A stretch of DNA of 64,000 nucleotides, from the NCBI RefSeq assembly GCF_964204645.1, contig NC_134029.1, positions 6,457,001-6,521,000 of the forward strand. The letters are read 5' to 3'. Under the pieces are notes generated by a model. The model was not told where the DNA came from, made no database searches, and was given only the letters and a program-made list of their open reading frames with translations. Shown one piece after another: positions 17,572 to 53,936 of the stretch; the first letter of the stretch is position 1; each line of letters opens with the position of its first letter. A program made the position numbers and the translations under genes. The stretch comes from Tubulanus polymorphus (lineage: Eukaryota; Nemertea; Palaeonemertea; Tubulaniformes; Tubulanidae).

Positions 17572-20500
17572 TCAATCGGGCAGAGGCTTGATCAACAGCC
17601 CGAGCACTTTAGCCTGTTCGGAGTTCTGAATCGTAAATGTCATCGTCTGGTGACTGCTTCGACAACACCGGAACACCGGCGCCCGTTCGACTTGGATCAC
17701 TTTGTCATCTTCGTTATAAATCAGAACGACTGCTTGGAATTTCGCCTCGGTTTGTACCATCGCCGTTTCGTGACAATATATTTGCAACGACCAGTTGTCA
17801 AGCTGGCGCCGGTAGGTGACGCGCCAGTCGCCGTCGCGCACCTCCTTTGGAACGGGCCCGATGTACATTTTGACGTCAACCTGAAAGCGTACGGTGTTCG
17901 ACATGCGCACCGTGTCGACGGTCAGGTGCGTGTAATCGCGCGGCAAGAAGAACGCCTCGGCGAACGACACGGAGAGATCGCCCTGTGTCGGGCAGATCGC
18001 GCGGAATCGATACGCGCGGCCGATCAGCTGGCGAATCAGATCGCCGCATTCGACGTGCGACGCGACATCGCTGTGCTCGATCTGATACAACTGCGACACC
18101 ATCAACTGCGGGAACCGGATCAACGGCAGCAGTCGCGTCGAGTATTCGCCGAGCGAGTTCACGTGCGATGGATGCAGCAACCAGGTCGTGATCGCCTCGA
18201 ACAACGCGTACTCGTCGGTGACGACGAGCTCCGACGAATGTAGAATGTCCTGCACGAATTCTACGTCCATGTTTGTCCATTCTTGAGACGTGATTATATC
18301 GGTCGTATTCCAGCATATAGTCTGTATACACTGTTGCATTAGACCTTTCAGGTGTAGCGCCTTCGACCACGGATACCAGGCCAACGCATTGTTCACTCGC
18401 GGACTCTTGCTGTGATTGATCATGTATTTCACGCAGAGCTCTTTCAACGACGCGACGTTGTACTTGTCGGCCAAACACAGAATACCGACGGCCGATTCGG
18501 CGGCGATCATGATTTCGGCCGTGTATAAATAGCGCAGGAACTTATCGAATACTGCTTGGCACTCGGGTGATTCGTTCAGTTCGACGTCCTCGGTGACGCC
18601 TTGCGACCACGGCCGCTCGTAGAGCATTGTGCGGAACACATCGCTCGATTTCGCCAAAACGAACTTGTGACCGTAGAATTTCTGGTCGCCGATTTTGAGC
18701 AGTACATCGCTGAGCGCCTGTTGATTGTAGAACTGAGATATATTCAGTATGAACGTCTCTTCATCTCGTAGAATCTCGTCCGACGGCGAGTCCATAACAG
18801 CCTGAAAAACAGCAACGACATTTTCGATAATTATCAACAGCCTGAAAACACTCGGAGTTAAAAGAGTTTAAAACAGGGCTCCTCGACGATGTTTATAGTG
18901 AAATTTACAGTTCAAACATGCCTTCTAGAGGAACAGTGGTTTCAAACCAATTGAAAAAAAAAATGTTACCTTTTCATCTACGGACATGATTTGAAACACC
19001 ATTATATGCAAAAAGCGGTGTACATGTATACACAAACTATTGAACTATTGTGACGAATTCGCAAGAGCATTTCGCGAATATTTAGCAAAGCTGTGTACAA
19101 TGGGGTACCACTTTAACACTAGTTTTATGATACATTTGAACTATCAATGATCAGGACTGGATTTACCTAATAAACGAAATCTGGCACATATTGAAAATGT
19201 CACATTTTTTATAGGTTTAGTTGTAAAAAATACTAAAACAAAAATGACAATAATTCTATTAAAATTACAAATAATTTACTATTGCTCATTCAGCTGAAGA
19301 ATGTGTAGTAGACCTAACTGAAAAAATCTTCACTCAAAGCATGTCGGTCAAAGACTAATAGCACAGTTAATATATTGATTTTATATGATTCTAATGAGTT
19401 CATTGTCACATTCATTTTTGTTGACTCCTCCCCTTAATTAAGTAAGTAAAAATGCTATATATATCTCTGGGTGGAATAGTAAAATTATCAAATCTTCTAA
19501 TCAGCATTTGGTCAACTTTGGCAAACCGGCCTCCGAACCTTATACCGGTCTTTTTCATACGAACCTTAATCAACTAAACACATATTTGTATTTAAACTTA
19601 CACATCCTAGTACTTCCGATATGTGATATCCACACGTTAAAGCTAGATCCGTTCCCGGATTTTTCAAACAAACGGAATCCGAGGAATCGGGAGCCTTGAC
19701 ACTATCGGCAGTCATGTTTATAAGCCACACGAACTAAACTAACTGAAATTCGACACTTGTCCACCACGCTCAGGCGTCTAAAATACCGACGCAATTTGTT
19801 GCTAATTCAACATGAATATATGTGCAAGAACTCGACGTATTGAAATCAAGTACAAAAGACACCCGATTATTTGGTAGATCGTCCCACAGCAAAACTAACA
19901 ATGTAACAATCTGGTATGAATAAAATGCCGACAGTCCGCGTATATATGCGACATTTTTTGGCGGCAATTCAAATCATCATGAGATTATGAATTCACGACG
20001 AATTGGCCGATAAAACTGTAACGTTAAAACATCATAAACGCTTAATCAACTAGATATACCTATTGTATAAATTTCAACTAGATTTCGATAATTTTCGCCG
20101 TCGAAACTACGCGAAAACAACATGATTTCTTTCAGCTCGTTTTCGCCATTCATTTCATACACAATCGACGCGGTTAATTTCAAATATTTCGCCACCGTTT
20201 CAAGTAAGATTTGGACAGAGTGGAGATCCGTCGTCGAAGCCAATGGTTTGAGCTGGTAACTTGTTTTCGCGAAAGTTTTTTTCTCTCGTCTACCGGTTCT
20301 GGGAATTGCGAAAAGCTGTGACATTGTTGAAATCCACTTCATGGCCCAGACAGTTTATAATGATGAATGAGCACTCGCTTTTCTATGAGAAGTCTCTCTC
20401 TCTCAGTACTTATAAAAACAGTAAACAATTGTCAAAAATCTGTAGACCAGGAAGTTTCGATCTTTCATATATGAAAGAATGGAATAAGCCAAAGTCAATA

Positions 20501-24753: not shown

Positions 24754-26517
24754 CAAAGTCTTCTTTAAACCCGACCTACAAAGAAAAGAAATTTTCACCC
24801 GGTTCTGAATTGAAAATGTTCAATACACCTGTTTGGCGGCGCATAACACCTCATGCTGCATGGGGGGGTCCTCATCCTCCGTATTCCCGGTGAGAGAAAA
24901 TAAGTGAGATGTGATGTAAAAGCAGGAACAGTCGACACAAACATTCCGGCAATCCGAGGGATACTTTAAAGGAACAATATCCAAAAGAACCGAGAGAAGA
25001 GATCACTTTCGTATCAAGCTCATTACGAACAGAATCTTCAAGCTATTATTGATCTTAAAGCATCCTCCCTGACAATGATTCGAACCTGATGGCGCCGCTA
25101 GACTCAGCCATGATACGACACCCTGCCACACGAGACCGGGTGCGCAGGTACAAGCACACGTTTGCCGTAAAAAAACTTGTAGCACCAATCAGATTGCCCG
25201 TTGTAAAATCACCAAGGAAAATTTCACAGATAAACTATAAATGGAAAAACCTGGGCTAAAATAAAACAAGATTTCCAATCGGCTGATAACATCTACGCTG
25301 CGCACTCGGGCCAATGTGGCAGGGTTTCGTGCCGTAGTGAGTCTCGATGCTATCAGGTTCGAATCCCGCCAGGGGAGGACGTCTTAAAGCGACGAAACAG
25401 TAAATTGGATTCAGCGGTTCGTTGCGGTACGCGTTCGATACCTTCACGAACCTCTCAATCCATTCTACCACGAGAAATCCGACACCTTTCAGAAGAAGGA
25501 TCTTAAAATGAAAACCACACACACCTCTTCGTCGTCGTAGCAAGAGCCGTCGTCGGAGATAAGAACCGGGTACAAGGCTAACGGTTGTATCACAGTCGCC
25601 CAGTAAGCTCGTTGTCGCCACCACGTCGATACCTGATGAGGTTCAACACCTCCGCCACCATGGGTCAGTCGCGTATGCGTTACGTAATCTACCGTTTCAT
25701 CACGTTCAGCCGCGGAATCGCCCGACTCGTCGAAACGAGTTTCGCGCGATTCGTCGTCTTCCGATCGTTCTAGTACTTCGCGACGATCGTCCTCGAGACG
25801 TTCGTTTCCATTCGTAATCTCACGAGCGTCGTCCGATAGCCGAGAATTACGGTTCAACGCAGTCGCTACTTCGCGGTCTTCGTCGTCTGAACTGCATTCG
25901 TCGCTATCTGTGGATGGAATACCCTGAATATCGTTTATATTCGACTGTTGCGAATTTTCACCGGTAAATTCATTATCATTATAAGAGTCAAGCTCGACAA
26001 CACCTCTCTCCTCAGCAGCGGCATCAAAACCAGAGGCTTCGTCATTTTGATGCTCGCTAACCGATATGTCACGATCAACTTCTTGATGTTCATTAGCACT
26101 TACAACCACAATTTGATCTTCAGCAGTGTTATTCACATTTCTATACCCGGTTTCCGAAAATTCGGGTTCAGCTTCTGGAATTTCATGAGCGCTCACAGCT
26201 ACAGCTTCTTCAGCGTTACGTTCACTTTTTTCTCGAACTGCTTTCGTCGTCTCCGGCAAAATGAATTCTACCTGCAACGGAAGCTCCAGATCCTCTTCGA
26301 AACGCACCTCGACTATTTCAACACCGTCGTCGTCGTGTTTCAATTTAGTCGTCGATAATTTCCGTTTTCCTCTGGCGCCGCCTCTCGTTCGGCCGACCAG
26401 TTCGTCGAACATCATGCCATCTTTTAGTTCCTGCGGGAGATCATATTCCATCAAATCATCCTCATTTTTGAGATCATCAGTTTTAAAGCATCCACAACAG
26501 AATATTCGTTTCAACAT
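24754..26517 (-). CDS. Unrecognised acidic protein with Cys-rich N-terminus; 3' exons not found
   Basis: The main exon runs from ATG at 26517 to a donor GAG/GTGTGTG at 25525, 331 codons. Residues 1-12 (MLKRIFCCGCFK) hold a CC-G-C cluster near a basic start, the sort of sequence that is often palmitoylated (inference). The centre is rich in Asp, Glu, Ser and Arg and probably disordered. The end of the exon (WWRQRAYWATVIQPLALYPV) is aromatic and hydrophobic and looks like a folded or binding segment. A 22-nt microexon at 24775-24754 has a strong acceptor (TTTCTTTTCTTTGTAG) and donor (TTTG/GTAAGA), adding VGFKEDF in phase 0 to 1. A foldback transposon lies between the two. Codon usage resembles neighbouring genes. 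I do not recognise the family, and the C-terminus is missing. Confidence 0.55.
25061..25380. mobile_element. Foldback element with tRNA-like terminal inverted repeats, copy 2
   Basis: Same family as 11879-12176. Left end 'catcctccctgacaatgatt', right end 'gaatcccgccaggggaggac'. The arms share 'gatggcgccgctagactcag' versus 'gagtctcgatgctatcaggt'. The flanks read gaTCTTAAAG on the left and gTCTTAAAG on the right, an apparent 8-bp target duplication, as made by hAT-type or related DDE elements. It sits in the intron of the unrecognised acidic gene. Confidence 0.72.
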
Positions 26518-27049
26518 GATTCTAATTAAAATGTGGCGAAAACTAGCCCTAAATCTATCACCCTAGGCCTTGTGGAACATGTCCGAAACCGAACTACTGG
26601 CAATGGTATATACACATAATACTTATCAATCGTGTATAGATAACGTATTAACACAACAGGCAGTAGTTTGAATATCATAACGAATAAAAAACCTACTGCA
26701 AATAGCTATTTTCGCTGAAAATTGATTGAATTGTTGAAGAGGTTTCATTGACGATAGACACACATGGCATTTCTATCTGTTATGATATATATAGAGTTTC
26801 AATATGATCCATATGAACCCCTCGCGTTAGAAAAAAAATTAAAATCAACCCTTAAAAAGTCGCCGTACTTTTAGACTATAATGTGGTCCGTGACCCAAAT
26901 CAAAAAGTTGGTATTTGTTTTAGATAAATGTCAGATGACACAAACAAATATTCGCTAATGAAGGTGGTTAGTTACATTTTAATAGCTGGTTGATCAGTGG
27001 GAGATAAATAACAATATACATATGATGATATGTAGGCATTTCAAATTGG

Positions 27050-36053: not shown

Positions 36054-37711
36054 TTATGTCATAACAGGTCGTTGTTCTCGTAACCAATCCACAAATTCAT
36101 CTAACATCACAGGCCCTGAAAAATGAATGAAATTACAAGACACTTTGAAGCTAAAGAAGGCATTATAAAAAAAAACTAAATTAAACTAGGACAGAAAATG
36201 ATTCATCAGAAATCAACGGTAAATTTACTTACAGGCACCATCTTCGTCATAATTTGACAGATCTGGTTGGATTGTTCGGCTAAATTCTAGAACGTTACAC
36301 CACTGATCTTTGTTAATAACTTTATATTTTGATTGCTGAAATAACGAAACACAATCATTCGTACATTGTAATAATGTTTCACATTTTTTATGGTCGAAGA
36401 AATCGAAGAAAAACAACAGAAAAATGTTTCGAGACATACGTACTTCTAAAAATTGATAAAAAGAACTATATAAAACCCAGTGCTTTCCCAGTAACAATTG
36501 AAGCATAGCTTTTGACAATTCTATATCCATACTTCGTTGTTCTTTATCCTGAAATGGAAATGTTTTGTCTAATCAGATTAAGAAATAGAGATTTTTCAAA
36601 GAAGGACACGATTTCATTAAACTACAAATCTGTGATTATATTTTATTCCTCCAACAAGTTTAAACACCTTTATGAAACATATGTAACTTACCCTTGCAAA
36701 ATCGAATGCATATCTGTAAATATTTTTAAACATCGTGGAATCATCTAGAAGTGATCGGAGGTAGGTGAACTTGCCTCGCAATTTCTCTAAATTATCACAT
36801 CTGCAGCAAAATAGAATTAAACCATTATTTTGTTCATTGCATGGATCAATTTTTGATTCACATAGACAATCAGTGACTGAACAATATTCAAGGATGTGAG
36901 GCAAGATTTTGAAATTTTCTCATTTTTCCACACCAAAAACGGGATTCTTCACATTCGTTCATACCAAAAACAGAATTTTTCAGCAGGGACATATAGGCCT
37001 ACCTAACGCAAGTTCTTCAATTTCAACCAGGTTTTATGCAAGAATTGCATAAAAAAACTTGTTTAAAAGACAAGGTAACAATTTTGACCTGTAATTGGGG
37101 TCTACAAATCAATGACTGACACATTTTTGCACATCTCATCCATGCAATACTATATTATAAATACGTCATGATTAGCATTCTTACTGAAGCTCTGTCATTC
37201 CTTTCAGCCATTCTGTCAACGTAAAAAATCCCATTTGTTTGGCATCTAGTTTATATGCTAATGACAACATCACGATCTAAAAAGGAAAGTTAATGGTTTC
37301 AATCATAAAGGGCAGAAGAAATTCCAAAAGAAATAGGCTAGGGTCCAGTTCCACAAAAAAGTTTAAAATTTAAAAATACTAACATCCTCTGGTTCAACGC
37401 CTAAATCTTTGCAGAATGTCTCCATCCCTTCAGGAGTGACAACATCCTCATCTGAACCTGCGTATTGGTGAAACCAGGCAATACAGCTTTTAGAACTGAA
37501 GGAAGACTCATCCTGTGAACGAGAGCTCCTTTTATTTGCACCATTACTGAAATACATAAAAAACAAAGTTCATGAAATAGGAAATAAGAAGTTTACCATA
37601 GACATTGTCATCAGCAATACTTTACTAAGTCCCTTACCCAGAAATTTTCGGTCGTTTGCTTTTCGGCTCATCAAACCCGGGTGAATTGCGTCTTCGTCTT
37701 TGCATCGGCAT
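36054..37711 (-). CDS. DCUN1D5: DCN1-like protein (DCUN1D5/DCUN1D4 type), cullin neddylation co-E3
   Basis: DCUN1D proteins bind a cullin and the NEDD8-loaded E2 and promote cullin neddylation. Exons in transcript order: 37711-37638, 37546-37384, 37276-37185, 36800-36692, 36548-36444, 36335-36233, 36115-36054 (TAA); 235 residues (human DCUN1D5 about 237). The start [12 protein letters not shown] resembles the short basic start of DCUN1D5. Next come [68 protein letters not shown] and [17 protein letters not shown]. The final [18 protein letters not shown] holds the conserved Asp/Ala/Asp surface used by cullins. If the leader exon ends at 38151 (donor GTAAGTAC), an in-frame TAA precedes this ATG, which supports the start. 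DCUN1D4 and DCUN1D5 are close; the length favours D5. Confidence 0.94.
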
Positions 37712-37733
37712 ATCTCCAGTCTCCTGTGATGCT

Positions 37734-39014
37734 CTGTAATAATATTCATAAAACAACTGCAAGATTTGAATGTACGGTAACAGGGCCATCGAAATGAGGG
37801 CAGCCACAACATTTTTTGAAGAGGTGCGGTAATTCAATGCGGGGATGTTTGAAATCAATAAAAAAATTTCTAGGGTAGGCCCCAAGACAAAATTGGTGGG
37901 CTTCCCACCGGTCAAGTGATTGCAGAACAGTGAACCAGTTCAACAGAAAACTCGATAAAGGCCCAACGAAAATTTTTCCTTCCAACTGATCTGGGTAGAA
38001 TGTATCTGATTCCAGCATCGGTAGATTTAGGCTATGGTACAATTGAATATCATCAGACTCAAGAGTGCCATGGCATAAGAACAGTAACTATTTTGTTTAT
38101 GAAATTTGCCATTTATTTGTCCAAATTTACTTGACAACCCATGTACTTACAAGAGCTGTTATCGTTAACTGACTGACTGACTTGTAAAAAATAATTCTGG
38201 TCGACTAGCGTGTTCCTGGTCACTTTCAACTTTCTTCATTCATTCAGCTCAGGTAAGTGTTGATTCGGGTTGGTTAGGCGAAATTTGCTCGCGATCGAAG
38301 CACTGAAAAGTGAAAATTTCGAAAAGACATTTGTAACTTCACTTATTTAGTTGAGAGATGTGCCCAGGCGATTGAGGGCGAGTCGACTGAAACGAATTAT
38401 AACGACGTAGAGCAAGAATAACAGACTAAAGACTTATGCGGCTTTGACTGTCTAGCCTACGTTGTCAAAGAAAGAAGACACTCCACACTTTTTTGGTTAT
38501 ATTGCTTGCTTCTGGGTTCAAGTCAATCATTCCTGTTGCGACAGCTTAAAAAGACAACATTGCATCTACCGATATTTACCGGTTAAAAGTGCTCAACTTG
38601 TCATGTAATGGTTCTGTTTTCGGGACACAATGTTGTTGACTTGGAAGTATTGAGGAGCGTAGCTAGCTAAAACATTATCGAATATACCCGATAAACTGAT
38701 TAGCAAGTGCTGCCACCTCTTACAAATCCGAACATCGGCACTAAAATTCATTTTTGTCAGTAAAATTTACACTCAAATCCTTTAATTGCAAATCGCATGA
38801 TTTTTGTGAATTAACGGGGTATTATTTTATTGAATATATGAAAGTTTTTTAGTAGTGTCATTTTGAGAATTTATGCCGTGACCGCGAAATACGGAAACCC
38901 GGAAGTTTGCCGTTAATTGAATTGAATTGTCCAAAAAAAAACGACCGAACGCTTCGACGCTTTTGCGTAATTAGGTCGTTATCCATTTTAATTTGAACTC
39001 ATAAATCCAACAAA
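37734..39014. promoter_or_regulatory. Divergent promoter region, DCUN1D (-) and SERF (+)
   Basis: About 1.3 kb between the first coding exons of two divergent genes. A minus-strand donor at 38151/38150 suggests a DCUN1D leader exon of about 38.15-38.3 kb. Next to SERF, 38880-38985 is richer in CpG ('gaccgcgaaatacgg', 'cgaacgcttcgacgc'). No TATA box is obvious. Confidence 0.45.
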
Positions 39015-39566
39015 ATGACACGTAAGACAATGATTTTTGTCCTCAATTTTTATCTATCTTCTAATTTAGTTTTATCTTCGACTGGGTTCTGGGTAGTCTG
39101 TGTGACGTACACTTGTCAATCATCGTAAACCGTGGCCTTCCTCCATTTCGAATATTCAGCCGCTTGTGTTGAAAAAGTGACTATCTAGTGATTCTCATTC
39201 AGGGGGAAATCAGCGCGAGAAGGCGAGAGAAAAGAATCTGAAGAAACAACAACAAACGGCTAAATCGAAAAAATCACCGGGTGACGGCAACAAAACGAAC
39301 GAACTCACCTCGCGAAAAGAGAGGTAAGAAATATGGCATTCCTTTTTTACTTTTGCGCCACGCTATGTTCCAGTCCATCTTACTTACGTCAGTAAAGTAT
39401 TTTCATCAAAAAACCATATCCAAAATGCTATTTGAATTTCAACATATGTCAATTCTTTTGTTAATTCATTTTTAGGGATGCAGATATAATGCGGCAGAAA
39501 CAACAAAAAGCGCTGGAGAAGAAGCAGTCAGATTCTGGCGGGGCAGCTGGTGGGTCGTCGAAATAG
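39015..39566 (+). CDS. SERF: Small EDRK-rich factor (SERF / MOAG-4 family)
   Basis: Exons 39015-39021, 39203-39323 and 39476-39566 (TAG), 72 residues. The product starts MTRGNQREKAREKNLKKQQ, nearly the invariant family start MTRGNQRE-AR-KN-KK. It continues with a Lys/Ser/Gly-rich linker, then SRKERDADIMRQKQQKALEK and a short Gly/Ser tail. SERF proteins are small, charged and disordered, and promote amyloid aggregation of other proteins (MOAG-4 in C. elegans, SERF1A/2 in human). Only seven bases of coding sequence lie in exon 1, as expected for this family. AATAAA at 40809-40814 gives a 1.2-kb 3' UTR. The gene converges on SMN. Confidence 0.95.
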
Positions 39567-41721
39567 AATAATATTTCTGAATGGTTATCAAAAAACAACT
39601 GAAGATATTGATTGGATAGATTGGGGGGGGGGGGACTATTTTTGTGGCTGTTTGTTCACGTCAACTATGGGCGAGGGGGTTGATATAACATAGGTGTGGG
39701 GCAATTGGAAGACTTTGTGTACCTTGTGAAAATATCTCTTACCGGTAGTCTAGACCTTGAAAAAAAATTTGTAATTTTTATTATTTGGCCGCAAATAACT
39801 GTATCTCGTATGTTACCATTGTAATTAAGAAAGCAAGTTAAAAATACCGAACTCGAAGCTCTCTTTATATCAGAATGTTAGATTTTCCCACTACATTGGG
39901 ATATATGCATGCATGTAGAATTTTGCTTTCATTGGTATTCTTCGAAGAATATTTTGAAGTTTGCCATATTCATAATGCTGGCGCTGCATGGTAACAGTAG
40001 TATACTTGTATTTTTGCTTGTAAAATATATATATGGGAATATTTTTGGGATCAATAGATTGCAAATAATCATTCACTCATTAAAATATGTTCATGTTTTC
40101 ACATCATTTATGCATTTCATTTTCATCCAAGACAACTGCCTTATCGTGTCGAGTGCTGGCAAGCTTTATTGAAGCTCAGTCTAGTGATAAAAATAGTGAA
40201 AATAATGTTGCCAAATAGTGAGTAGATAGAAAAGTTCAGTCACTGAAGTGTGTCGATTGTAAACTGGCCCAGAACTCGCTTCCAAGTGACTGGTGCTGAT
40301 ATCGTAACTCGCAATGATTGAAGACAGTTATCTTTTCAAATAGAGTCAAAACGGTGTGAGTCTGGCTGTGGAACTCAGCGCCTGGTTTCCAATAAACATT
40401 TACGTAATACTCCCTTGAATCGATACATTGTACCGCATATATGTAAGCTACTTGATATAAACAAACCACAGGTCACAAATAGTCCCATCGGCCGGATTAT
40501 GATATTGAAATATATTTTTCTGACCATATTCATGAAGAACAGTATGTTTGAGATATCACTCATGCTTAACGAGACAAATCTTGTGAAGATTCAAGAAATT
40601 CAACTCGAGTAAAGTACTGTACATAATAAGTATGTTTGTTTCTTTCGACCCAGACTAACTCCCATTCCAATTGGATATCTCATCAATTCATTGCTATCTG
40701 ATCATTTCATTGTATTAATTTTTTATATGTGTGATTTTCATGGAAATAGGATCTATTTGGTGCTTGCTTAATTGCACTGTATATTTGTGTATAATTCCAT
40801 TTCATTGTAATAAAACCCATATTGCTCATCATTTCAATTGAAATTAAGTCACTTTTAATTTTTTTGTCGCTGTAAAATCAAAATGGTCAAACAGGCCCCC
40901 CTACACAGGACATAGACTTATGGTATGGTAGGCTCGATCCTTCTAGAGCAGGAAATTATTGCTGTGAAAAGTGAACAAGATTTTTCTAGCAAGAAGGGAT
41001 GTCACAAACTTCACCAGTGCTAGTTTACTTACTGTATTTGTTTGTCATTGTATGTAGAGTCAACCCCTGATATACCACCCTCATTTATAACACCGGTGTA
41101 TATCTCTAGACAAATATATGATAAAACACCCCGATATACCGCCAAAATCGTTCTGCACCGATGTGGGCGGTGTGTATCGGGGTTGACTATGTTGATTCAA
41201 AAAACAATTATTCGATTCAATCAATTGACCAGGACACAAATGTAATTGTGTTGCAACATGTGTGCAGTTTTTTTTAACAATTTTTAAATCATGCATCATT
41301 GTAACGGCTGTGGGTCTTGTCAAAGGTTATAAATCACAATTGACAATGTAAACATCTCGGTGACACTTGTGCAGCAAACAATTATCCTACTGTAAATTGA
41401 TTCCACGTGTCTAGCACACAAATCACCAGACTTCGTCGTATCAACCAACCTCATCATAGATGTCAAACAGAAATCAAAAATCAAAATGAACAGATCTTTA
41501 TTTAAAAGTTTTTGCAATTTTTTTTACAATTCGTTTTTTACTGTTTTGAAAATATATATCCTATGAAAGACTAAATAATGTTGAACACATGAGATGCATT
41601 TTCGAATCTAATCTCGATTCTACAAAAATGGCGAAAATAAAAAGAACCATGTCATTCTTAACAATGAATTACGTATCATTAATGATAACTTGTAAATTGT
41701 TCGCATTTGGATATTAGTTTG
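39567..41721. other. SERF and SMN 3' UTRs and the gap between them
   Basis: SERF 3' UTR runs right to AATAAA at 40809. The SMN 3' UTR runs left, with a minus-strand poly(A) signal (TTTATT on +) at 41498-41503. A run of about 11 G lies near 39625. An inverted-repeat element occupies 41058-41188. No coding exon. Confidence 0.5.
41058..41188. mobile_element. MITE with AGTCAACCCC inverted ends
   Basis: Left AGTCAACCCCTGATATACCA and right TGTGTATCGGGGTTGACT are inverted repeats; the core repeats 'atataccgcc'/'ataacaccgg'. About 130 bp, Tc1/mariner-pogo style, non-coding. Confidence 0.55.
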
Positions 41722-44700
41722 CTACCGCCCATCTCGCCTACTCGATTTTCCATCGCGCAAACCCTGCAACAAATGCCAAAATTTAAAACATAAGACAACA
41801 GGGAGACCTAGAATAAGTGGAAGGCTGTGGTCCAGAAGAAAAAAAAAGGCATTGCTAGGATAGAGCAGCCATGTCACTGGCCACCAGCAGGTCGTTCCCT
41901 TGGTATTAGATATTTTTTGAAGAAATAAACCCAAAAAGATACAATTTCAAAGAAGATGAGTGTCAAACTAATAGTTTTCACACAATCTCTGGACGAAAAG
42001 GGCAAACTCGAAGGGACGACAGGCAGGGGTCCAAACCACGAGAACATCCCCCTAAATCCGCCCCTGGACAAACATAACCACAAAGGAATTTCAGAAGACA
42101 AGAAGTTATTAAAATCGAGGGTAATAACCTGGTAATATCCAGTGTGGTATCCACTCATATACCACGACATCAGCATACTGCACAACGCTTCATTATCCAG
42201 ATCAGAGATATCCTCCGAAATCGGAGGTGGTGGCGGAGGAACCATTGCATTTCTCTGTAAAACAAAATATCATTAATTAAGCAACATCCGAATTATGAAT
42301 AATAGTTTACATGGATCTTGGTTAAATGGACCCAATATTTCATCAGAATTAAGTGAAAATCCAGATTGAAAAATCCAACTTCAGTAAGTTCTGTAGTTAC
42401 AAGTAAATGGTTCCGCATCATTAAGTTCCAACCCACAGTTTTTCCAATTTTGTAGCCATCCCTTAATGCTTGCCGTCGCTAGCTATGTTCACATACATAA
42501 ACTGGACATTTCCCACAAAATAGCTCCATATCATAAATCAAAGTAAGGTACATACCATATGCCCCGTACTGTAAGCGTTCCATGGCGGGAATACTGCAGG
42601 GGGAACAGGTGCCTGAAATGTGTCAAAATTACATCACAAACATGAAAATGATATCAAACGTCTAAAGATCTGATTTTCATAACCAAACCTTGAGATACTT
42701 ACAGACATGGGAAACGATGGTGGCATCATGGGATACTGAAATGGCATGTTGGTTCTGTGACTTGATTTCTTTCCACCTTTACCTCCACTTTTACCCTTTT
42801 TGTAATAAGCTGGACTCGGGTGTCCTCCATGAGTGCAATCCATTGATTCGCTCTGTAATAAGCCAAGCAAATGAATATATAATTAGTTTCTCAAGATCAC
42901 TTCACTTTTATGAAAACATGTACAGCACATTGGATAGCGCAGAGACTGTAAATATTCCTGTGTTGGCCGCATATCAAATTGAGTATCAAAGGAAACGCAA
43001 TTGTCTCTCCAAAGAGATTCATTAGAAAATTAACTTGCTTAAATTTCTACAGAAGCCAGGCCCATAGCATGGGCAGAGAGCACCCTCCTTACAAAAAATT
43101 TACCAATAGCTCTGGAAGATTTTGACTGTAGCTTGTAACACCACTGCCAACATGTCTGAGAATGCATCTACGATCATTTAGATTTCAAAATACATTCTGC
43201 GGAATATGCCCCTGACCCTAGCGGACCACATAACGACCCTGAAAACAATATCTACCTCTGAGGCAGTCTGGTTTAACAAACAATCTTCATTTGTCATATA
43301 AAATTCCCCGGGAGGCAAAAGATCCGCGATATTGATGTCTTCTTCATTCTCGTAGTTGGTATAACGAACTGTACAAGTTTTGGAGTCGTTATCGATGGCG
43401 ACAATTTTTGCTGGGTACACGCTTTGATCTTCGCTGAATATGGCTCGACACATGTCACCGACCGCCCAATGATCCCGCTGAAACAGAAAGAACTTAATGA
43501 TGATTAATAATGAAGCTCTTATAGCACTCAATTTGACAATATAACCTAGTGAGTAATCTGTCTGTGGTTTAGTTTCACGATCTGATATTTTCACTGTTGG
43601 TATAAGCCTAGTCAGTAATTTGTCTGTGGTTTAGTTTCACGATCTGATATTTTCACTGTTGGTATAAGCCTAGTCAGTAATCTGTCTGTGGTTTAGTTTC
43701 ACGATCTGATATTTTCACTGTTGGTATAAGCCTAGTCAGTAACCTGTCTGTGGTTTAGTTTCACGATCTGATATTTTCACTGTTGGTATAAGCCTAGTCA
43801 GTAATCTGTCTGTGGTTTAGTTTCACGATCTGATATTTTCACTGTTGGTATAAGCCTAGTCAGTAATTTGTCTGTGGTTTAGTTTCACGATCTGATATTT
43901 TCACTGTTGGTATAAGCCTAGTCAGTAACCTGTCTGTGGTTTAGTTTCACGATCTGATATTTTCACTGTTGGTATAAGCCTAGTCAGTAACCTGTCTGTG
44001 GTTTAGTTTCACGATCTGATATTTTCACAAGCTCATCCGATTATAAAAAGCTTACCACCAATGATTAGGTAACTAACTAGTATAAGCCCATCCCGTTATA
44101 TAAAAGGTTACCACCAACTAATTTGTAACTAATCAGCCAGGCTACTCAGAGGGCTTTACAGGAGAGGCATGTGTTGCCCAGGACACTATAGAAATGTGCA
44201 TGTAATGTAGGGATTGAACCCATGACCAGACTCCCCAGAGTCCAATGCTTTAACCATTCACCCACAATGCTTCCACAGTATTGTAAATTGAATGAACACA
44301 GAAGAGGACTACAATTCAATCACTCAGGGGCCAGTTGCATAGATTTAAGACCAGTCTTAAGATCAACTTAGTTCTGTAGCCAATCTAGCAACTTCAGTCC
44401 AGTGTGAAGTTTAAAGACCACGGTTGGAATTAAGTCACGACTGTGCAACTGGGCCCAGAATCAGATTATCTGCAGTAGTTTTACCAGTTTCTCCCTCACA
44501 CATACCTCGTTATCGTGAACTGCTTTCTTCATTTTACGTCGATTATTTCGACGGTGTTTCTTAACATTTGTTTGTGCTTGTTGCTCGGATGATTTATCAG
44601 CAACATCCCCATTACACATCTGGGCCTTGATTAAAAGATATAAAGCTGAGAAAATTAACATTTGTCGGGTTTGGCAAGTTTTCTACATAATCAGCCTTCT

Positions 44701-45484
44701 GTGGTAGGTTTCGATTGGTCTCTCTCTCCCTTCTAGCGTGTTCGATTTCATCAGAATATGCTCTACCTATTCCAGAATCCCATATTCTGTTTACTCGATA
44801 AAAGATAAAGCCAGTAGAGGATTTGTAATCGAGAATTACTATTTGATTCCTAAATAGGAATATATTCAATCGAAGCCTGCTTTAGTCAACTGAATCTATG
44901 GCCATCATATGTGTATACAAACCTTCATCCTGTTGACTGCTCTATCATAAGCTTTAATTAACGCTGTATCGTCCCATACATCACTATCTTCACTCTGTAA
45001 AATATAACGATAATTGAAAGACAGAAGCTAGCGCCATTCAACTTGGCAAAAAAAGACGTTTGACGTAGTCTGACATAAGTAATCATAACCCTCTCTGTCA
45101 TCTCTTGCCATTCGGCTGTTTCGCCATTTTGCTGGATTGATATCAGGACTCTTGAAGCAATGAGAAAGATAATGACGTTACTCTTGATGATAGCACTTGT
45201 CAATTCTTATCTGTAAAGAGCTTCATATATCGGACCCGTATTTTTCATTCAGATGGACCGGGATGTGGCGCCCCCTAGGTTGAATGCTACGATGAAATTA
45301 CGCGCAAGTTATTGGCAAATCAACCAGGTTAGATAACACTGGGATTAAAAACAATCACTTTAGTCGTACAATATATATCATTCGAGTTAGAATCAAGCAT
45401 TAAACTGACAAAAATGATAATGGCGCACGTTACCTGGTCGTCTCCTCGTCGAAATATTACTCCCGAACTTTCAGCGGCGGACAT
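41722..45484 (-). CDS. SMN1: Survival motor neuron protein (SMN)
   Basis: SMN with Gemins loads Sm rings onto snRNAs. Exons: 45484-45434, 44994-44923, 44625-44506, 43477-43256, 42852-42703, 42612-42556, 42254-42129, 41763-41722 (TAG); 279 residues, all in phase 0. Residues 1-17 (VIFRRGDDQ) and 18-41 ([20 protein letters not shown]) form the Gemin2-binding N-terminus. Residues 42-81 end in a Lys/Arg-rich stretch. The Tudor domain is at about 82-140; Y102, Y120, Y123 and N125 match the human cage, but human W102 is F95 here. A Pro run is at 230-235. The YG box [16 protein letters not shown] (250-265) drives oligomerisation. The last exon encodes [13 protein letters not shown]. The exon-3 acceptor could be 6 nt later (44619). 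Confidence 0.97.
43548..44028. repeat. 62-bp minisatellite in SMN intron 3, about 7.8 copies
   Basis: Unit starts 'agtcagtaatttgtctgtgg' and ends 'ctgttggtataagcct'. Copies begin at 43548, 43610, 43672, 43734, 43796, 43858, 43920 and 43982 (last one truncated at 44028). They are nearly identical except at one site: aaTCtg, aaTTtg or aaCCtg in the order C, T, C, CC, C, T, CC, CC. The exact period and recurring variant order suggest recent unequal exchange or conversion. Confidence 0.95.
44195..44285 (-). repeat. tRNA-derived SINE-like fragment in SMN intron 3
   Basis: Read on the minus strand, 'gtgggtgaatggttaaagca' resembles an A box, and 'gggttcaatccc' a B box and T arm about 45 nt later. 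There is no proper acceptor-stem pairing or anticodon loop, so it is unlikely to be a working tRNA. Confidence 0.45.
44328..44456. mobile_element. MITE, GGGCCAGTTGC family, in SMN intron 3
   Basis: Left 'gggccagttgcatagattt' and right 'cgactgtgcaactgggccc' are inverted; the interior 'taagaccagtcttaagatca' is self-complementary. About 130 bp; sister copy at 3498-3640 in PCM1. Confidence 0.75.
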
Positions 45485-46494
45485 TTTGGAAATGCGTAAT
45501 AGTTGGATTTGGACTTTGGAAAGAACTATTAGACTGTAACAATATCCAACATGGTCGCCATGAAGAAAAATCCCGAAATTTTTAGGTTTTCTTTCTGATA
45601 GAAATGTAAGATCTAGCGATGCCCAGACCTTTTAGATAATCGTCTATTACAAGAAATATATCTGTTTCAAATTCAATCTTCAAAACGCAACGGACTGGCT
45701 GTAATAACAATTTATATAGGCCTAAAATCATTGCAAACCTTACAGTTTTACACACCACCATAAGATTTGCTGTTGTTTGAAATTAAAAAGAAGGAACCTG
45801 CTGATTTTTTTTTGTACAAAATGAATTTATCCGGTCAATAATAGTCTTCCACCAGCCAGGGCGAACTTTGGTTATTGTAATTTTGTGAACTAAATTGAAT
45901 TTCGAAATTGAATTTCGCTTAGTCCGATAGTCCGAAAAGTGAAGCATGCAACGCAACCGTGTGAGCACGATGGTCGCTTTAGTTCGGACCTATCTCAGTT
46001 CTAAGATGGCTGATGCTACGGCATGTGTAACGTAGTAAGATCAAACATATTGCATTCGATTATTACTAGCTCCAACTTGGGACGAAATCCAAAGTTACCC
46101 TAAGGCAATAACCCCTTTTTAGCCTTGTCTTTTAGCCTTGTCAGCTAGTGCTGATTTTGATTCCACTGAAAACATTTTCTAGTGTTTAGGTATAACAATT
46201 CCAGGTGTGGCCGATGTGATGCATGTGTGTTCTTCGGCCTGGGCACGCTGTCTAGGTCACCTTCCCACTCTGTGGCACTAGAGCGTTATTAAAGGATAGG
46301 CCTAAGGGTTTTAGGGTTATGGTTAGGTAGATATCGACCTAACCATTTGCTAGATTAGGCACATCTTAACTGAAGTCACTCTTATCATTTTTTGTAGGCG
46401 GTATTGGAATCATGAGATGTAAAAAGCTCTGAGAGTAGATATTTATTTTCTTAATTGACATTTGATCAGAAAAAAGAAGAAACTTTTTGCCAAG
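45485..46494. promoter_or_regulatory. Divergent promoter region, SMN (-) and SUGP1-like (+)
   Basis: One kilobase between two divergent start codons. 'aagatggc' at 46003-46010 and 'tggtcgccat' at 45554-45563 resemble YY1-type sites common in housekeeping promoters. A donor GTAAGATC after 46034 and an acceptor TTTGATCAG ending at 46469 suggest a leader intron for the plus-strand gene. The leader may carry a short upstream frame from 45969. Confidence 0.45.
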
Positions 46495-49400
46495 ATGAAT
46501 CGTCGGGCTAATCAAACGGGCGGGACTGGCGGAAACCAGTCTCAACAGAATCAGAACTATAAAATCCGTATGAAGGAAATATCCGACCAGGAACGTCTGA
46601 TTCAACAGAAAAAAAAAGAAATCGAAGATAAGATGATGAAAGAAAAACAAAAAGAACAAGACGATTCATCGAAAAATCCTCCTGCAACGACTGCCAAACC
46701 ACAAACCAGTGCGAAAAGCACCTTTTCCGGTGCAAAAATGTAAGTTAGGGCCTTCAACAGCAATAACCCTCAACTGGTCACTAATGGTCGAGTGCGGGTC
46801 AGCTTTCAGAAAATGATGACCCTTTACATCGGTAATCTTTTCAGGTTTGGTAAACGTCCTGGATTCCAAAGTTGGAAAGAGAGCTTCAAAAAGGCGAAGA
46901 CAGCTGCAGCAGCCACTGCTACTAATACCGAGGAGAGTCAAAAATCACAACCTGGGCAGAACGTATTCAGCAGTGATGGGTCATTTTTGGAAACATTCAT
47001 GAGAACCCAAGGCATTAAAGGTATGATTGAACTTGTGTTTCTTTGTTTTGTCGAAATGTTGCAGAAATTTAGTACACATTAAGGTGGAGTCTAATATATG
47101 TGTCAAATTTAGTATAGAGGTTTTCTTTATTTCAGCCAAAGTGAAGGAGGAGAACATTGATGACTCAGATAAAGGAGAAGTGAAAACTGAGAAGAAAGAC
47201 TTAAAAGATAGTGAAAAGACAGAAAAAGCAAATGCCACCGTCCAGGTGAAAACTGAGGACGTAAAAGTGAAAGAGGAGGTGAAAGTAAAGAAAGAGGCCC
47301 CCGAACCGAAACCCGAAAAACAGAAACCTCCCAGTCTGCTTGATTTACCCGAAATAAAACCCCATTTCGATCGTCATCACGGTACACATCGAATGCAAGA
47401 TATGAATCATCCAATGGGACCACAGCATATGAATGCACCTCCTCAGCGCATGATGCATTCGAGAATGGCTCCACCGCATCACATGGATCAACAACGCCAT
47501 CGTATGGATGGACCGCACCATCGACACGATGGTCCTTCGCATGGCCATCCTATGGACCGACCTCAAGGATTCGGTTCGCAACCACCCCCGCAGATGATGC
47601 CTCCCAATGTTCAGCAACAACAAGGACCTCCACCTCAATTCAATCCAAATCAACAGTTTAATAATCAGTCGCCTCAGTTTAGTCAAGGGCCTCCTCCTTT
47701 CAACCAACCACCTCCAGAGCATATGCCACCTGGAGCCCCTAACTTTCCGCCACCGGGAATGAATCAGGGATTCAATCAGCCACCGATTGAATCGCAGCAA
47801 CATTCAGGATTTCACCAAGGTCCTCCGCAAATGTCTGGACCTCCTCCGAATCAGCCACCTCATCAAGCAAACTTCGGGCCTCAACCTCCTGAACAACAGC
47901 CGTTTGGACACGGGCCACCTCAACCTCCTGGTTTCAGTCAAGGACCGCCGGAGCCTCAGTTTACTCAAGCTATGCCTCCCGTGACTGGTTTCAATCCAAA
48001 TCCTATAGACATATCTCAACCACGTCCTCCATTCGGTCAAGGACACATGCTCCCTGCAAACAATTTCAACCAGCCTTCTGAACAAGCTTCTCATCAACAA
48101 TTTGGTCAAGGTCCACAAATGGGTAATTTCAATCCAGAAGCGCCTCCGTTCAGTCAAGCAAATTCACAGATGCCAGGACCCGGTATGAACCAGCAGGTTT
48201 CTCTACCACAACAACCGGACTTCAGTCAGAGACCGCCTCCTCAACAAGGCCCACCAGGATTCAACTTGCCCCCAATGCAGAGTAATGTGTTGATGCAAGG
48301 TAGACCAAACCCTGGTCCTTCTTCGCCGAATCTAGCCCCTCATCAAACTCCTCCCCCTCCTGGCCTCCTGCCACCAATGCCTCCCAATCAAGCTCCTCAA
48401 CCAGGACAAACGCCGCCTCCTTTCTCGCAAGGCATGCCATTTCCACGGCCTCCGACACCTGCTAATCAGTCAGAACCACGGTTTTCAACTCCTCCTCCCT
48501 GGGCTACATCACAAGGCAATCAAGGAATTATGGCTCGCGATGCCGGATCCCCTTTCACCACTTCTGTTAGCATGTCTCAGCCTCCTGATAACATACACAT
48601 GCCACCACAAGGCCCTCCGCCTGGACTAATGCAAATGCCTAATTCGCAAGCTTCGCCCGGAATGATGCACCATTCCGGTCCAAATTTACCTCCCGGTCAG
48701 CCTATTCCGCCGCCTCCGAGTCATTCTCAACACGAAGCCATTCTATCAGGCATGCCGCCTAGACCTTCTTTATCATTACCGCAGCAGATATTGACGCATA
48801 GTTCCGTGCCAAATAGAATGCCGATGCCTCCGCATCCTCCACAAATGATGGATTTGCCTCCTTTACCCGGACCTATACAACCTCCCGTAGGTCATCAGCA
48901 ACCTCGACCACCAATGCCGATGCACGGAGGACCTCCGCCTATGTCGATGCCGAATTTCAATCAGCCACCGCCGGAACCACGGTTTTCGACGACACCCCCT
49001 TGGCAGAAATCCCGCATGCCCGGCCCCGGACACCAACCTCCAACTGGAGTCCCTCCGCACCGAGGCCCGACACCGGAAAGATTCCCGATGTCGGCGCCAT
49101 CTCATCTTCCTCCTATAAGCGATTTTAGTTCGTCAAACTCGGACACGTACGATCCGACGAACCCGACTGAAGAGGATCGACCGACCAGTTCACCGCCGGC
49201 TGGTTCGAGTCAACAGCAATCGTGGCCTCCTTCGCAGAAACAACAATCTGAATTTTATGATCCGACGAATCCAACAGAGGGACACTCCCCGCAAAAAGAG
49301 GGTATGTGAAATGAACCCAAGAACCATTGTCGCCTGTGGCTTGTAACTGTTTCTTCTTACCTGGCATCTTAACTAATCAATAATTGTATGTCATATTCAA

Positions 49401-52400
49401 TTCGAAGATGAGTCTTTGTGTAGAAAAATTCTAGGTTTAATCATCATTACTTACTTCTCGTTACATATGATTTGTAGGAATGCATCAGTTACCGATGATG
49501 AGTCAACCTCAGCCGGGAATGCTCAGACAGACATCTGCTGATATATTCAAACAAGAACCAAATGAACGAGGTACTTCAGATCAATATTGTTCATTCGTTG
49601 TTGATATCTCATAGGGATAGATAGGACTATGAACTTTCTCACTGGCATAATTAACGAACATTTTCCAACTTTTTCCTGGAAGGGTTTTCTATGAAAATTC
49701 GATTGGATTTTGTATGTAGATTTCAACTGCAAACATACGGGTTTTATCGCTAGATAAGATGAACTGCTCTGTCTCAATATCAATATCTCAATCTGGAAAA
49801 CCTACCTACCAAATTGTTAAAAAATGATTATTAATCCTTTCAGTGCTGACTAATTAATTCCCAAAAGTGCTAGAGATAATTTTGAAGTGTTAAGAAATTC
49901 CACCCCCAGTGTGTTGAGCCACCATATTGTGTCCACACCGCGGTGCAGTGCATCGCTAGTACTTATATTGCACTTTGAGAGGTGCTGCTGTCTTTAATAG
50001 TGATAAAAAACTAATTACATGCTGTGTACTAGCAAAGTCCATCTCTAATTCATACACCGCACTGCAGTGTAGATGCACTGAAAGGTTTAATCGGAGTAGT
50101 ATTTCCTAGCCATATTACCTGTTAAGATTGCGGGGCCTCGATGAGATTATGCTATGAGGACTGTTACATGTGTACTAGGTATATAAATTCGAGAGCCTAC
50201 TGTTTGGGGCGTGTTACACCTTTACTTACGCCAGCTATTCTAGTCTTTCCACCAGACGATCCTCAACTGAGACAGGTCATCGAAAAACTAGCCAGTTATG
50301 TGGCCAAGTCTGGTCCACACATGCAAGAAATAGTGACAAGTAGAAGTCGAAATGACCCTAATCATTGGTGAGTATAGAAACTAACTTTCATCTGCATGAT
50401 TACCCTAGCTATTACACTCTACACACATTTGTCATCTTAGATAGTGTTCGATTTTGGATCACGATTGATTCATTATGGCTTGCTTGGTGGATAGGGTATT
50501 TGACTGGCATTAGAAAACAAATTGTGCTACTGTAACGCGCATTTGTTTGGGATAAATGGCAGGTTTCGATTGGTCTTAACGGATTCTAGAACACCGCTTT
50601 CTTCTCGACCAGGATACCCTTATCCTACCGGTATTCCAGAACATCATATTCTGTAAACCGGATTGAAGGTGTTATCCAGAATTGATATTTTTAAAAACTG
50701 GAATACGTTCAATTGAAACCTGTCTATATCAGTGCTCATCCTGTGTCAAAAGGGCTTGGTTTGTCTGAATACTAGATCATTTCTCTGTGTTGTCAATGGC
50801 TGTGTTAAACTTAATCTTCACTTGCCTTTTCTACCATTGTTCGTATTTCTCTTTCCTTTCCTGTATATTTTTCTCCTGTACTAACTCAATGCATCTAATT
50901 CATTCTGCTTAGAATTATTCATAATTTTGCCACATGTTGTAAGCGATGTTTCTTCAGGTACGCATACATACACACTAATAGGTAATAGGAAGTGGTTTGA
51001 TAATTGGCGAAATCTTGCATACAATTGCAAAATCTAATTACAACTTTCTTGTTCAATCAACGAAAATTATCTTATAAAGTACATTCGCGTATGTATATAA
51101 GTCATTTCACGAGTATCTTTTAGTTGTCTCACATCTTAACCGGGGCAGATCCACGTGCTCCGTGTGCTCCCATCGGAAATTTCCCACGCACTTTTGACAA
51201 TGCAATGGCAATATTTCTCAGGGCACTTTTTTCACCCACAACTAATAAGACAGCAGTCTGCGGCGCAAGACTGACTTTCTCTCAATGTCCCACAAGTGCC
51301 TAAAAATTGTATGAAAATGCACAGAAGTTTCAAAATTTTCCATAGCCTTGTTTTGGCTGCGTGGCTTACTTAACTTGACCTTTTTCAGTATATATGCCCT
51401 TTTCATTTCTTTGCACCCCTGTCAAAGTCTGCCCCTGGATCTGCCCCTGTCTTTGTTTATTTCATGTCTTGTTCGTCGCTGCTTTGCTGTTTTTGCTCGG
51501 TTCGATGATGTGCTTGTTCTCTCGCTACTGCTGTCACACGCGGGAGGGGTACACGAAACTTGGGTGTGTCCATTTTTGTTCTGCTGAAATCCTTACAGGT
51601 TTCTATACGAGCCCGACAGCCAAGCGTATAGGTATTATATGCAACGTTTGCACGAACACACGGGTGGCCGTCTCGGCAGCAGTCGAAGTCAAATGAGGTC
51701 GGATATTGCCAGTGGACATGATGCCGACGTCGAAGACAATTATAGAGGTGAATTATTCCTAAATGGCCCAAATTTCTCTCGATTCTAAGTGATTACCGGC
51801 ACGCAAAATATTTGCTGTATCGCGTATTGAAGATTGCTTTTGCGTTTTTTTAGGAAAGATTGAGGAAAGACGAAAAAAGAAAAGAAGAAGTCGATGGGGG
51901 CCAGATTCGGACAAGTCTGCTGGGCCACCTCTTGCGTCAATACCACCGCCAATACCTCCACCAATGGGTAAGTGATCTGAACAAAATCATTGTTAAACGA
52001 CTCTTTGTTAGTTTTCATCGGTTAATTTTGTTTTGTCTATTGTATAGCAGCCAGTGTGGAAGATGCTATTCGTAATATCGCGAGGCAGACAACGGGAAGC
52101 GATGTTTTGACTGCTGAACAGGCGAAACAGTTACAAGAACAAAAGCATGTAAGCACTTGCTATATTATAGCAGTTGAGGATTCGTTAGCTCGAGAAACTT
52201 CAGATTGACTGTATAAGGTCCACAACCTACTGGTCTGTTGTTAACTACTTGACAAACATGTATAGAATACTTATGAAAACAGAGGAAGGAGGCTCCCTCC
52301 TAATAATCGAATGCTAAACCTGAGAAATCCATTCTCATGCAAGAAGATCTCGGTAGTGAACATGGAATTCTCAGGGCGGATCCAGAGGCCAATTTCAAAG

Positions 52401-53936
52401 ACTTGTCACATCCCATAAGGGCATTTCGATGTCTACAAAGGCAATCATAGGGAAATTTGAGGGACTTGTACAAGTCTGACAAGTCCCCCTGGATCTGCCA
52501 CTGACTCTACTGAACATAGAACTTTAGCATCACTTAAAAACAAGCTATTCTAACCTTTCGTATGTTCCACAGAAAACTTCAGCTCAGCATTGGTTGGTGG
52601 AGCTATCATAGCGTCGATATTTTCGAATTTGAATGATTAAATGCTGATCTTATCGTTCTCTCTCTGTTTGTAGTTGCAAATGATGGTAGAAATGATCACG
52701 GCGAAAAAGAAGGCGATGGCCGCTCAGGCGAAGGCTATCGAAGCCGGTCTACGTATCAAACCGAAATACGAATACGATTCCGATGAAGATACTCAAGGTG
52801 GAACGTGGGAACATAAATTTAGAGATCAAGAAATGGAAGCCACAAGAGGTTGGTTGAGAATCTCCGTCAATATTTTATTCATCCTGATTTTCTTCAATTA
52901 TGCCTTGTCGTACATCGGTATTTCATTTGTTGATGATATTCTGTTTGTATAGACTGGGCTCAAAAACTGACTGAAATGGGACAAGGAAAACATCACATTG
53001 GTGATTTCTTACCGCCGCAAGAGTTGGAGCAGTTCATGGAAACATTCAGGGTACTCTATCCATGTTATTCATTCATTAATTTGATATCACTTTCTGAATC
53101 AATTACGGTTCGTCTATATGGCTGTATTCACTGATTGTAGGCATTACAAGAAGGCCGTGAACCGGATTTATCGGATTATAAACAATTCAAGATCACTTGT
53201 GAAAATGTTGGTTTCCAAATGTTGGAAAAAATGGGATGGAAAGAAGGCGAAGGTCTAGGTCCGGATGGCCAGGGAATCCTCAATCCAGTAAACAAGTGAG
53301 AACAAGAGAAAAAACCTCATCAAATACAGTAGTCTACTGAGTACCACTGATTATGCAGGGGGATTTTTCTAGCCAAGGAGTAATTTTTCATGTCCCACTT
53401 ACAATCTATAACGTTTCGAATTATTACACTACAGTTTTCTCTGTATGCTGGAATTTTAAAGGGGCTGCATTAATTGTTAAGCGTATGACATTGTGGTTGC
53501 TAAAGTAGCAAGGCTTTCGATCTCCTAAAAGGAGAGAAAATTAAGCTTAATTTTGGTGTAATCTTCTATTTTCGGAATTGGCAGCAGATAATTTTAGGGG
53601 GTGACTGATTATCAGAGGGGTGTTTGTAAAAATAAAAGGGGTGGCAATCCCTCTAAAACCTATTGTGGAGACTGCAGTTTTTATAATTTTGTGTTTTGTA
53701 GAGGATCGCAGCCTGTAAACGGTGGTGGCCTCGGTATCGAAAGACCGGCTGAATTAAGTAAAACCGATGACGAATTCGATGCCTATCGAAAGCGTATGAT
53801 GTTAGCTTACAGATTCAGACCAAACCCGTTGGTGAGTAGATAACACTTTAAATCATATATGGATTCTTATTTGCTCGATTTACAAACTTTTTCGATTTCG
53901 ATTTTGCAGAATAATCCGAGGAGACCATACTATTGA
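46495..53936 (+). CDS. SUGP1: SURP and G-patch splicing factor, SUGP1-like, with a long proline-rich insert
   Basis: SUGP1 acts at branch-site recognition with SF3B1 and recruits an RNA helicase through its G-patch. Exons: 46495-46739, 46845-47020, 47136-49301, 49478-49570, 50244-50367, 51599-51747, 51854-51967, 52048-52148, 52674-52848, 52953-53050, 53141-53295, 53702-53831, 53910-53936 (TGA). All are in frame, about 1250 residues (human about 645). N-terminus: [28 protein letters not shown]. Residues 141-200: Lys/Glu-rich with several VKxE motifs. About 200-860: Pro/Gln/Met/Gly-rich, with two RFSTPPPW-like and two YDPTNPTE motifs. About 903-954: one SURP domain. Near 990: [13 protein letters not shown], a UHM-ligand-type motif. 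1148-1215: G-patch ([18 protein letters not shown]). The end [18 protein letters not shown] is family-invariant. Acceptors at 50244 and 52048 have in-frame alternatives. AATAAA at 54640-54645. Confidence 0.95.
49835..50086. mobile_element. TTAA-flanked MITE in a SUGP1 intron
   Basis: Begins TCCTTTCAGTGC after TTAA (49831-49834) and ends GCACTGAAAGGT before TTAA (50087-50090). Same family as 32794-33073 and 60786-61072, inserted in the opposite orientation relative to them ('ctgactaattaattccc' at the left). Confidence 0.75.
51142..51449. mobile_element. Inverted-end repeat, CAGGGGCAGATCC family
   Basis: Left 'cggggcagatccacgtgctc', right 'gcccctggatctgcccctg'. About 308 bp in the SUGP1 intron 50368-51598. 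Confidence 0.5.
52372..52503. mobile_element. Inverted-end repeat, CAGGGCGGATCC family, short copy
   Basis: Left 'cagggcggatccagaggcc', right 'cccctggatctgccactg'; inner 'gacttgtcaca'/'ggacttgtacaagtc' pieces also pair. Lies in the SUGP1 intron 52149-52673. Confidence 0.6.
53455..53690. repeat. Interspersed repeat shared with 57295-57555
   Basis: Shared phrases in the same order: 'aaggggctgcatta' / 'gaggcagcattatgacat', 'caagcttaattttg..atcttctattttc' and 'ggcaatccctctaaaacctattgtggag' / 'ggcagcccctcaaaaacctgttgtggag'. The element ends close to the acceptor of the exon at 53702. Class unknown. Confidence 0.55.

Follow-up and report, generated by a model that had tools for sequence, protein, structure and literature searches.

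SERF and SMN are convergent neighbours in the nemertean Tubulanus polymorphus, on a chromosome that very probably shares ancestry with human 5q13

The genes for SERF and SMN lie immediately next to each other in the Tubulanus polymorphus genome, each apparently in single copy, on a contig (C5) that also carries seven of the nine genes we tested from the human 5q13 region or its copies from genome duplication. The same two genes adjoin each other in human, and their adjacency in the two species was probably inherited from a common ancestor. The window analysed here is the whole 64,000-nucleotide stretch (C5:6457001-6521000) in an assembly of 267.8 Mb and 77 contigs; it holds, from left to right, PCM1 (+), a BTB/BACK gene (-), an acidic open reading frame (-), a DCUN1D4/5-like gene (-), SERF (+), SMN (-) and a SUGP1-like gene (+). 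The features at and around the pair are as follows.

36228..37726 (-): DCUN1D4/5-like gene, head-to-head with SERF, exons partly delimited (Cullin_binding 4e-12; human DCN1-like protein 4, 6.5e-25; coding potential)
39015..39021 (+): SERF exon 1, coding (spliced model)
39203..39323 (+): SERF exon 2, SERF-like_N domain (spliced model and Pfam)
39476..39566 (+): SERF exon 3 with stop codon (spliced model)
39567..41721 (no strand): convergent gap between the stop codons, without protein, tRNA or Rfam match
41722..41763 (-): SMN exon 8 with stop codon (spliced model)
42129..42254 (-): SMN exon 7, YG-box (spliced model and Pfam)
42556..42612 (-): SMN exon 6, donor CATATG|GTATGT (donor read by eye; the frame closes and Pfam matches)
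42703..42852 (-): SMN exon 5 (spliced model)
43256..43477 (-): SMN exon 4, Tudor domain (spliced model and profile match)
44506..44625 (-): SMN exon 3, with a 6-bp ambiguity at the acceptor (spliced model)
44923..44994 (-): SMN exon 2, Gemin2-binding domain (spliced model and Pfam)
45434..45484 (-): SMN exon 1 with start codon (spliced model)
46495..53783 (+): SUGP1-like gene (SURP, G-patch), head-to-head with SMN, end approximate (Surp 3e-4, G-patch 2e-14; coding potential)

The SERF gene (39015-39566, forward strand) is complete in three exons, with GT/AG at all exon borders, and its spliced model encodes a 72-aa protein (MTRGNQREKAREKN...). Pfam SERF-like_N matches this protein (E 5e-10), and residues 1-61 align to human SERF2 (1e-9) and human SERF1 (3e-7). 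A SERF-like N-terminal domain thus starts a short protein that, unlike ZNF706, carries no C2H2 zinc finger, as expected of a SERF (4F5) ortholog; a misnamed ZNF706 was ruled out, that gene being a separate one on contig C8. The SMN gene, running from 45484 down to 41722 on the reverse strand, is complete in eight exons and encodes a protein of ~279 aa. Pfam profiles identified the Gemin2-binding domain (1e-15), the Tudor domain (7e-15) and the C-terminal YG-box (3.5e-16), all above curated cut-offs and in the order that marks an SMN ortholog, and the best matches to the protein in the PDB are SMN. In the intron that separates SMN exons 3 and 4 lies a tandem array (43540-44028) of 7.9 copies of a 62-bp unit at 97% match, a recent local expansion.

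These complete gene models bear out the sequence-only reading that SERF and SMN are immediate, convergent neighbours, with stop codons at 39566 and 41722-41724, 2,155 bp apart. That reading had also placed nothing but 3' UTRs between them. A Pfam search of the open reading frames in the gap (39567-41721) gave no match, Rfam and tRNA searches gave no hit anywhere in the window, gap included, and a coding-potential scan of the gap revealed no substantial segment; no hidden gene or RNA separating the two genes was found by the Pfam, Rfam and tRNA searches. The gap is therefore free of recognisable protein, tRNA and Rfam RNA, and the 3' UTR ends within it are predicted from AATAAA signals. Candidate signals lie at 40809 (+) for SERF and, as the first AATAAA for SMN, at 41502 (-), so that the two transcripts would not overlap if these are used.

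Profile searches of the whole genome, which may miss weak matches, identified two SERF-domain loci, the window gene and C8:1024021, the latter reading as ZNF706 with a C2H2 finger, and two SMN-Tudor loci, the window gene and a long non-SMN open frame of 3,029 aa on contig C2. SERF and SMN each appear to be single copy, no other clear ortholog of either having turned up in the genome, and the comparison with human is accordingly a clean one. The ZNF706-like gene on C8 (positions 1500-2600 of locus L003) is followed by C-rich sequence in which the end of its last coding exon recurs as an array of copies. A COX1 search of the whole assembly returned no match; the mitochondrial genome seems to be absent or was missed.

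Each gene of the pair stands head-to-head with its outer neighbour. About 1.3 kb (37727-39014) separates the start of SERF from that of the DCUN1D4/5-like gene, and 1.0 kb (45485-46494) separates the start codons of SMN and the SUGP1-like gene, the name SUGP1 being our own reading of its exons. Because SMN and SUGP1 both act in splicing and are arranged head-to-head here, a bidirectional promoter is possible. Farther left on the reverse strand lie a 357-aa acidic reading frame (25492-26562) that shows strong coding bias and matches no Pfam family above cut-off, and a single long open frame of 431 aa (17575-18867) with BTB and BACK domains, in which no kelch repeats were matched. We take the human orthologs to lie at 8p22 (PCM1), 4q12 or 11q22 (DCUN1D4 or 5), 5q13 (SERF1 and SMN1) and 19p13.11 (SUGP1); of the window genes identified, SERF and SMN alone adjoin each other in human as well.

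In T2T-CHM13, SERF1A/B occupies 71357459-71375322 and SMN 71381875-71409804, with NAIP at 71424931-71482091, GTF2H2 at 71489386-71524303 and BDP1 at 71936967 (PMC12056310); SERF1A precedes SMN by 6.55 kb in these coordinates, with no listed gene between them (PMC12056310). The human pair (5q13.2) is thus the same two genes in adjacency, at a wider spacing than the 2.16 kb between the stops in the window, and it is segmentally duplicated, with NAIP and GTF2H2 coming after it, whereas the window pair is single copy and flanked by DCUN1D4/5 and SUGP1. The human genes are presumably transcribed in the same direction, whereas those of the window converge. The 3' side of SERF faces SMN in both species, so a flip of SMN alone interconverts the two arrangements. 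The earlier suggestion that one gene was inverted fits this geometry, with SMN as the gene that would have flipped and the side presented by SERF unchanged, given the human orientation that we assume.

We then tested linkage inside the window's own genome, using gene families that in human lie in 5q13 or in its copies from genome duplication (15q, 19p13.11 and 1q). The families were picked before their locations were seen, in two batches of four, and MRPS27 joined these eight later to make nine; apart from SERF1A/B, SMN, NAIP, GTF2H2 and BDP1, their human positions are those we assume. The locations found were as follows.

MRPS27: C5, 2.51 Mb
UTP15: C5, 3.42 Mb
IQGAP: C5, 9.25 Mb
CRTC: C5, 16.85 Mb
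ELL/occludin: C5, 19.05 Mb
MAU2: C5, 20.20 Mb
HMGCR: C5, 23.05 Mb
BDP1: C2, off C5
GTF2H2: C7, off C5

C5 makes up 9.3% of the genome and received seven of the nine genes (binomial p 1.8e-6, the draws being only approximately independent), or six of eight without MRPS27 (p 1.5e-5). The seven are spread over ~20 Mb, with SMN/SERF at 6.5 Mb, and do not follow the human order. This excess of paralogon genes, counted on the assumed human locations, indicates that C5 is very probably the descendant of the ancestral chromosome from which human 5q13 and its duplicates arose, and that SERF and SMN both stayed on it. A search of the literature on the 5q/15q/19p/1q paralogon found nothing relevant. An extended 5q13 block was rejected, since GTF2H2 and BDP1 map to other contigs, and the region does not qualify as an ancient microsyntenic block, in which at least three orthologs cluster in several species from separate lineages. 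The proposal that the linkage is ancient is supported at the level of the chromosome; at the level of adjacency it is plausible.

For two random C5 genes, the chance of lying as close as this pair, whose centres are 4.3 kb apart, is p ~3.5e-4, and that of strict adjacency is p ~0.7-1.3e-3 for an assumed 1,500-3,000 genes, values that overstate the surprise because the pair was chosen post hoc as the human pair. We consider it probable, with some reserve, that SERF and SMN were neighbours in the common ancestor and were never separated, SMN having flipped in one lineage, which would make the pair a passive linkage relic. The complete adjacent orthologs, the linkage of seven of nine genes and a chance of adjacency of ~1 in 1,000 per pair argue for this, as does SUGP1, which adjoins SMN here and which we place at 19p13.11 in human; the orientation, unlike that in human, argues somewhat against it. 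With GTF2H2 and BDP1 off C5, no block is kept around the pair. Vertebrates keep few ancestral microsyntenic blocks, 70 vs 110-124 in shuffled genomes (PMC8851819), so a single match between a vertebrate and an invertebrate is weak evidence of descent. Our literature search found no tabulation of SERF-SMN order outside mammals, and the C. elegans literature yielded no usable map positions for SERF or SMN.

Coincidence is the less probable account, though one that retains real weight: both genes would have stayed on the same ancestral chromosome, and local shuffling would have joined them independently here and in vertebrates. The low probability of strict adjacency for any one pair speaks against such a double event, but thousands of human neighbour pairs at ~1 in 1,000 each would, by our estimate, give a handful of such matches per genome; the thoroughly mixed order along C5, the differing orientation and the location elsewhere of the human neighbours GTF2H2 and BDP1 likewise favour coincidence.

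Under inherited adjacency, SERF and SMN would be ordinary single-copy housekeeping genes kept on the same ancestral animal chromosome, of which human 5q13-15, 15q, 19p13.11 and 1q21 would be vertebrate duplicates and C5 the descendant in this species. Gene order inside that chromosome would have been thoroughly mixed, while SERF and SMN, already neighbours in the common ancestor, would not have been parted since, SMN flipping in one lineage. Each gene would be driven by a promoter of its own, and any sharing would be with the gene on its outer side, DCUN1D4/5 for SERF and SUGP1 for SMN.

Selection for shared regulation, through a regulatory block, a shared enhancer or antisense 3' ends, is very unlikely to be what keeps the genes together. 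They do converge with 2,155 bp between their stops, but their promoters lie at opposite outer ends, 6.5 kb apart, each head-to-head with a different gene, an anatomy that excludes a shared SERF/SMN promoter; the likely poly(A) signals leave the transcripts non-overlapping, and the arrangement is not kept relative to human. A genomic regulatory block would comprise a developmental regulator and bystander genes spanned by conserved non-coding elements; of the genes in the window that could be identified (PCM1, BTB/BACK, DCUN1D4/5, SERF, SMN and SUGP1), none was recognised as such a regulator. The recognised window genes look housekeeping and the intergenic gaps near the pair are short, which together with the opposite-end promoters makes the setting look unlike a genomic regulatory block. 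The earlier idea of shared regulation or a regulatory block thus found no support in promoters, partners, neighbouring genes or gap lengths, and the two genes are probably not co-regulated.

SMN1 is the gene behind spinal muscular atrophy, and SERF1A, frequently deleted along with it, is discussed as a modifier. It is very improbable that the two have been neighbours since before bilaterian animals and were held, through the SMN inversion and after it, by a functional link such as coordinated expression or a chromatin domain, in which case SERF's place near human SMN1 would not be accidental. A shared ancestral chromosome does not by itself imply that SERF and SMN work together. With both genes very probably on one chromosome long before vertebrates, the human linkage would be an inherited chromosome neighbourhood and not a vertebrate invention.

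Published ancient microsyntenic blocks (PMC8851819) require a minimum of three genes, found in several species. The SERF-SMN pair resembles these and genomic regulatory blocks in that neighbouring genes are common to distant animals; it differs in comprising two genes in two species, with no regulator gene recognised beside them. Conserved animal macrosynteny, in the form of ancestral linkage groups, is another likeness: the genes of one vertebrate paralogon gather on a single invertebrate chromosome, in scrambled order, and C5 is a typical instance, with no difference noted. The SERF-SMN case is one of ordinary conserved animal macrosynteny with, possibly, an ancient neighbour pair.
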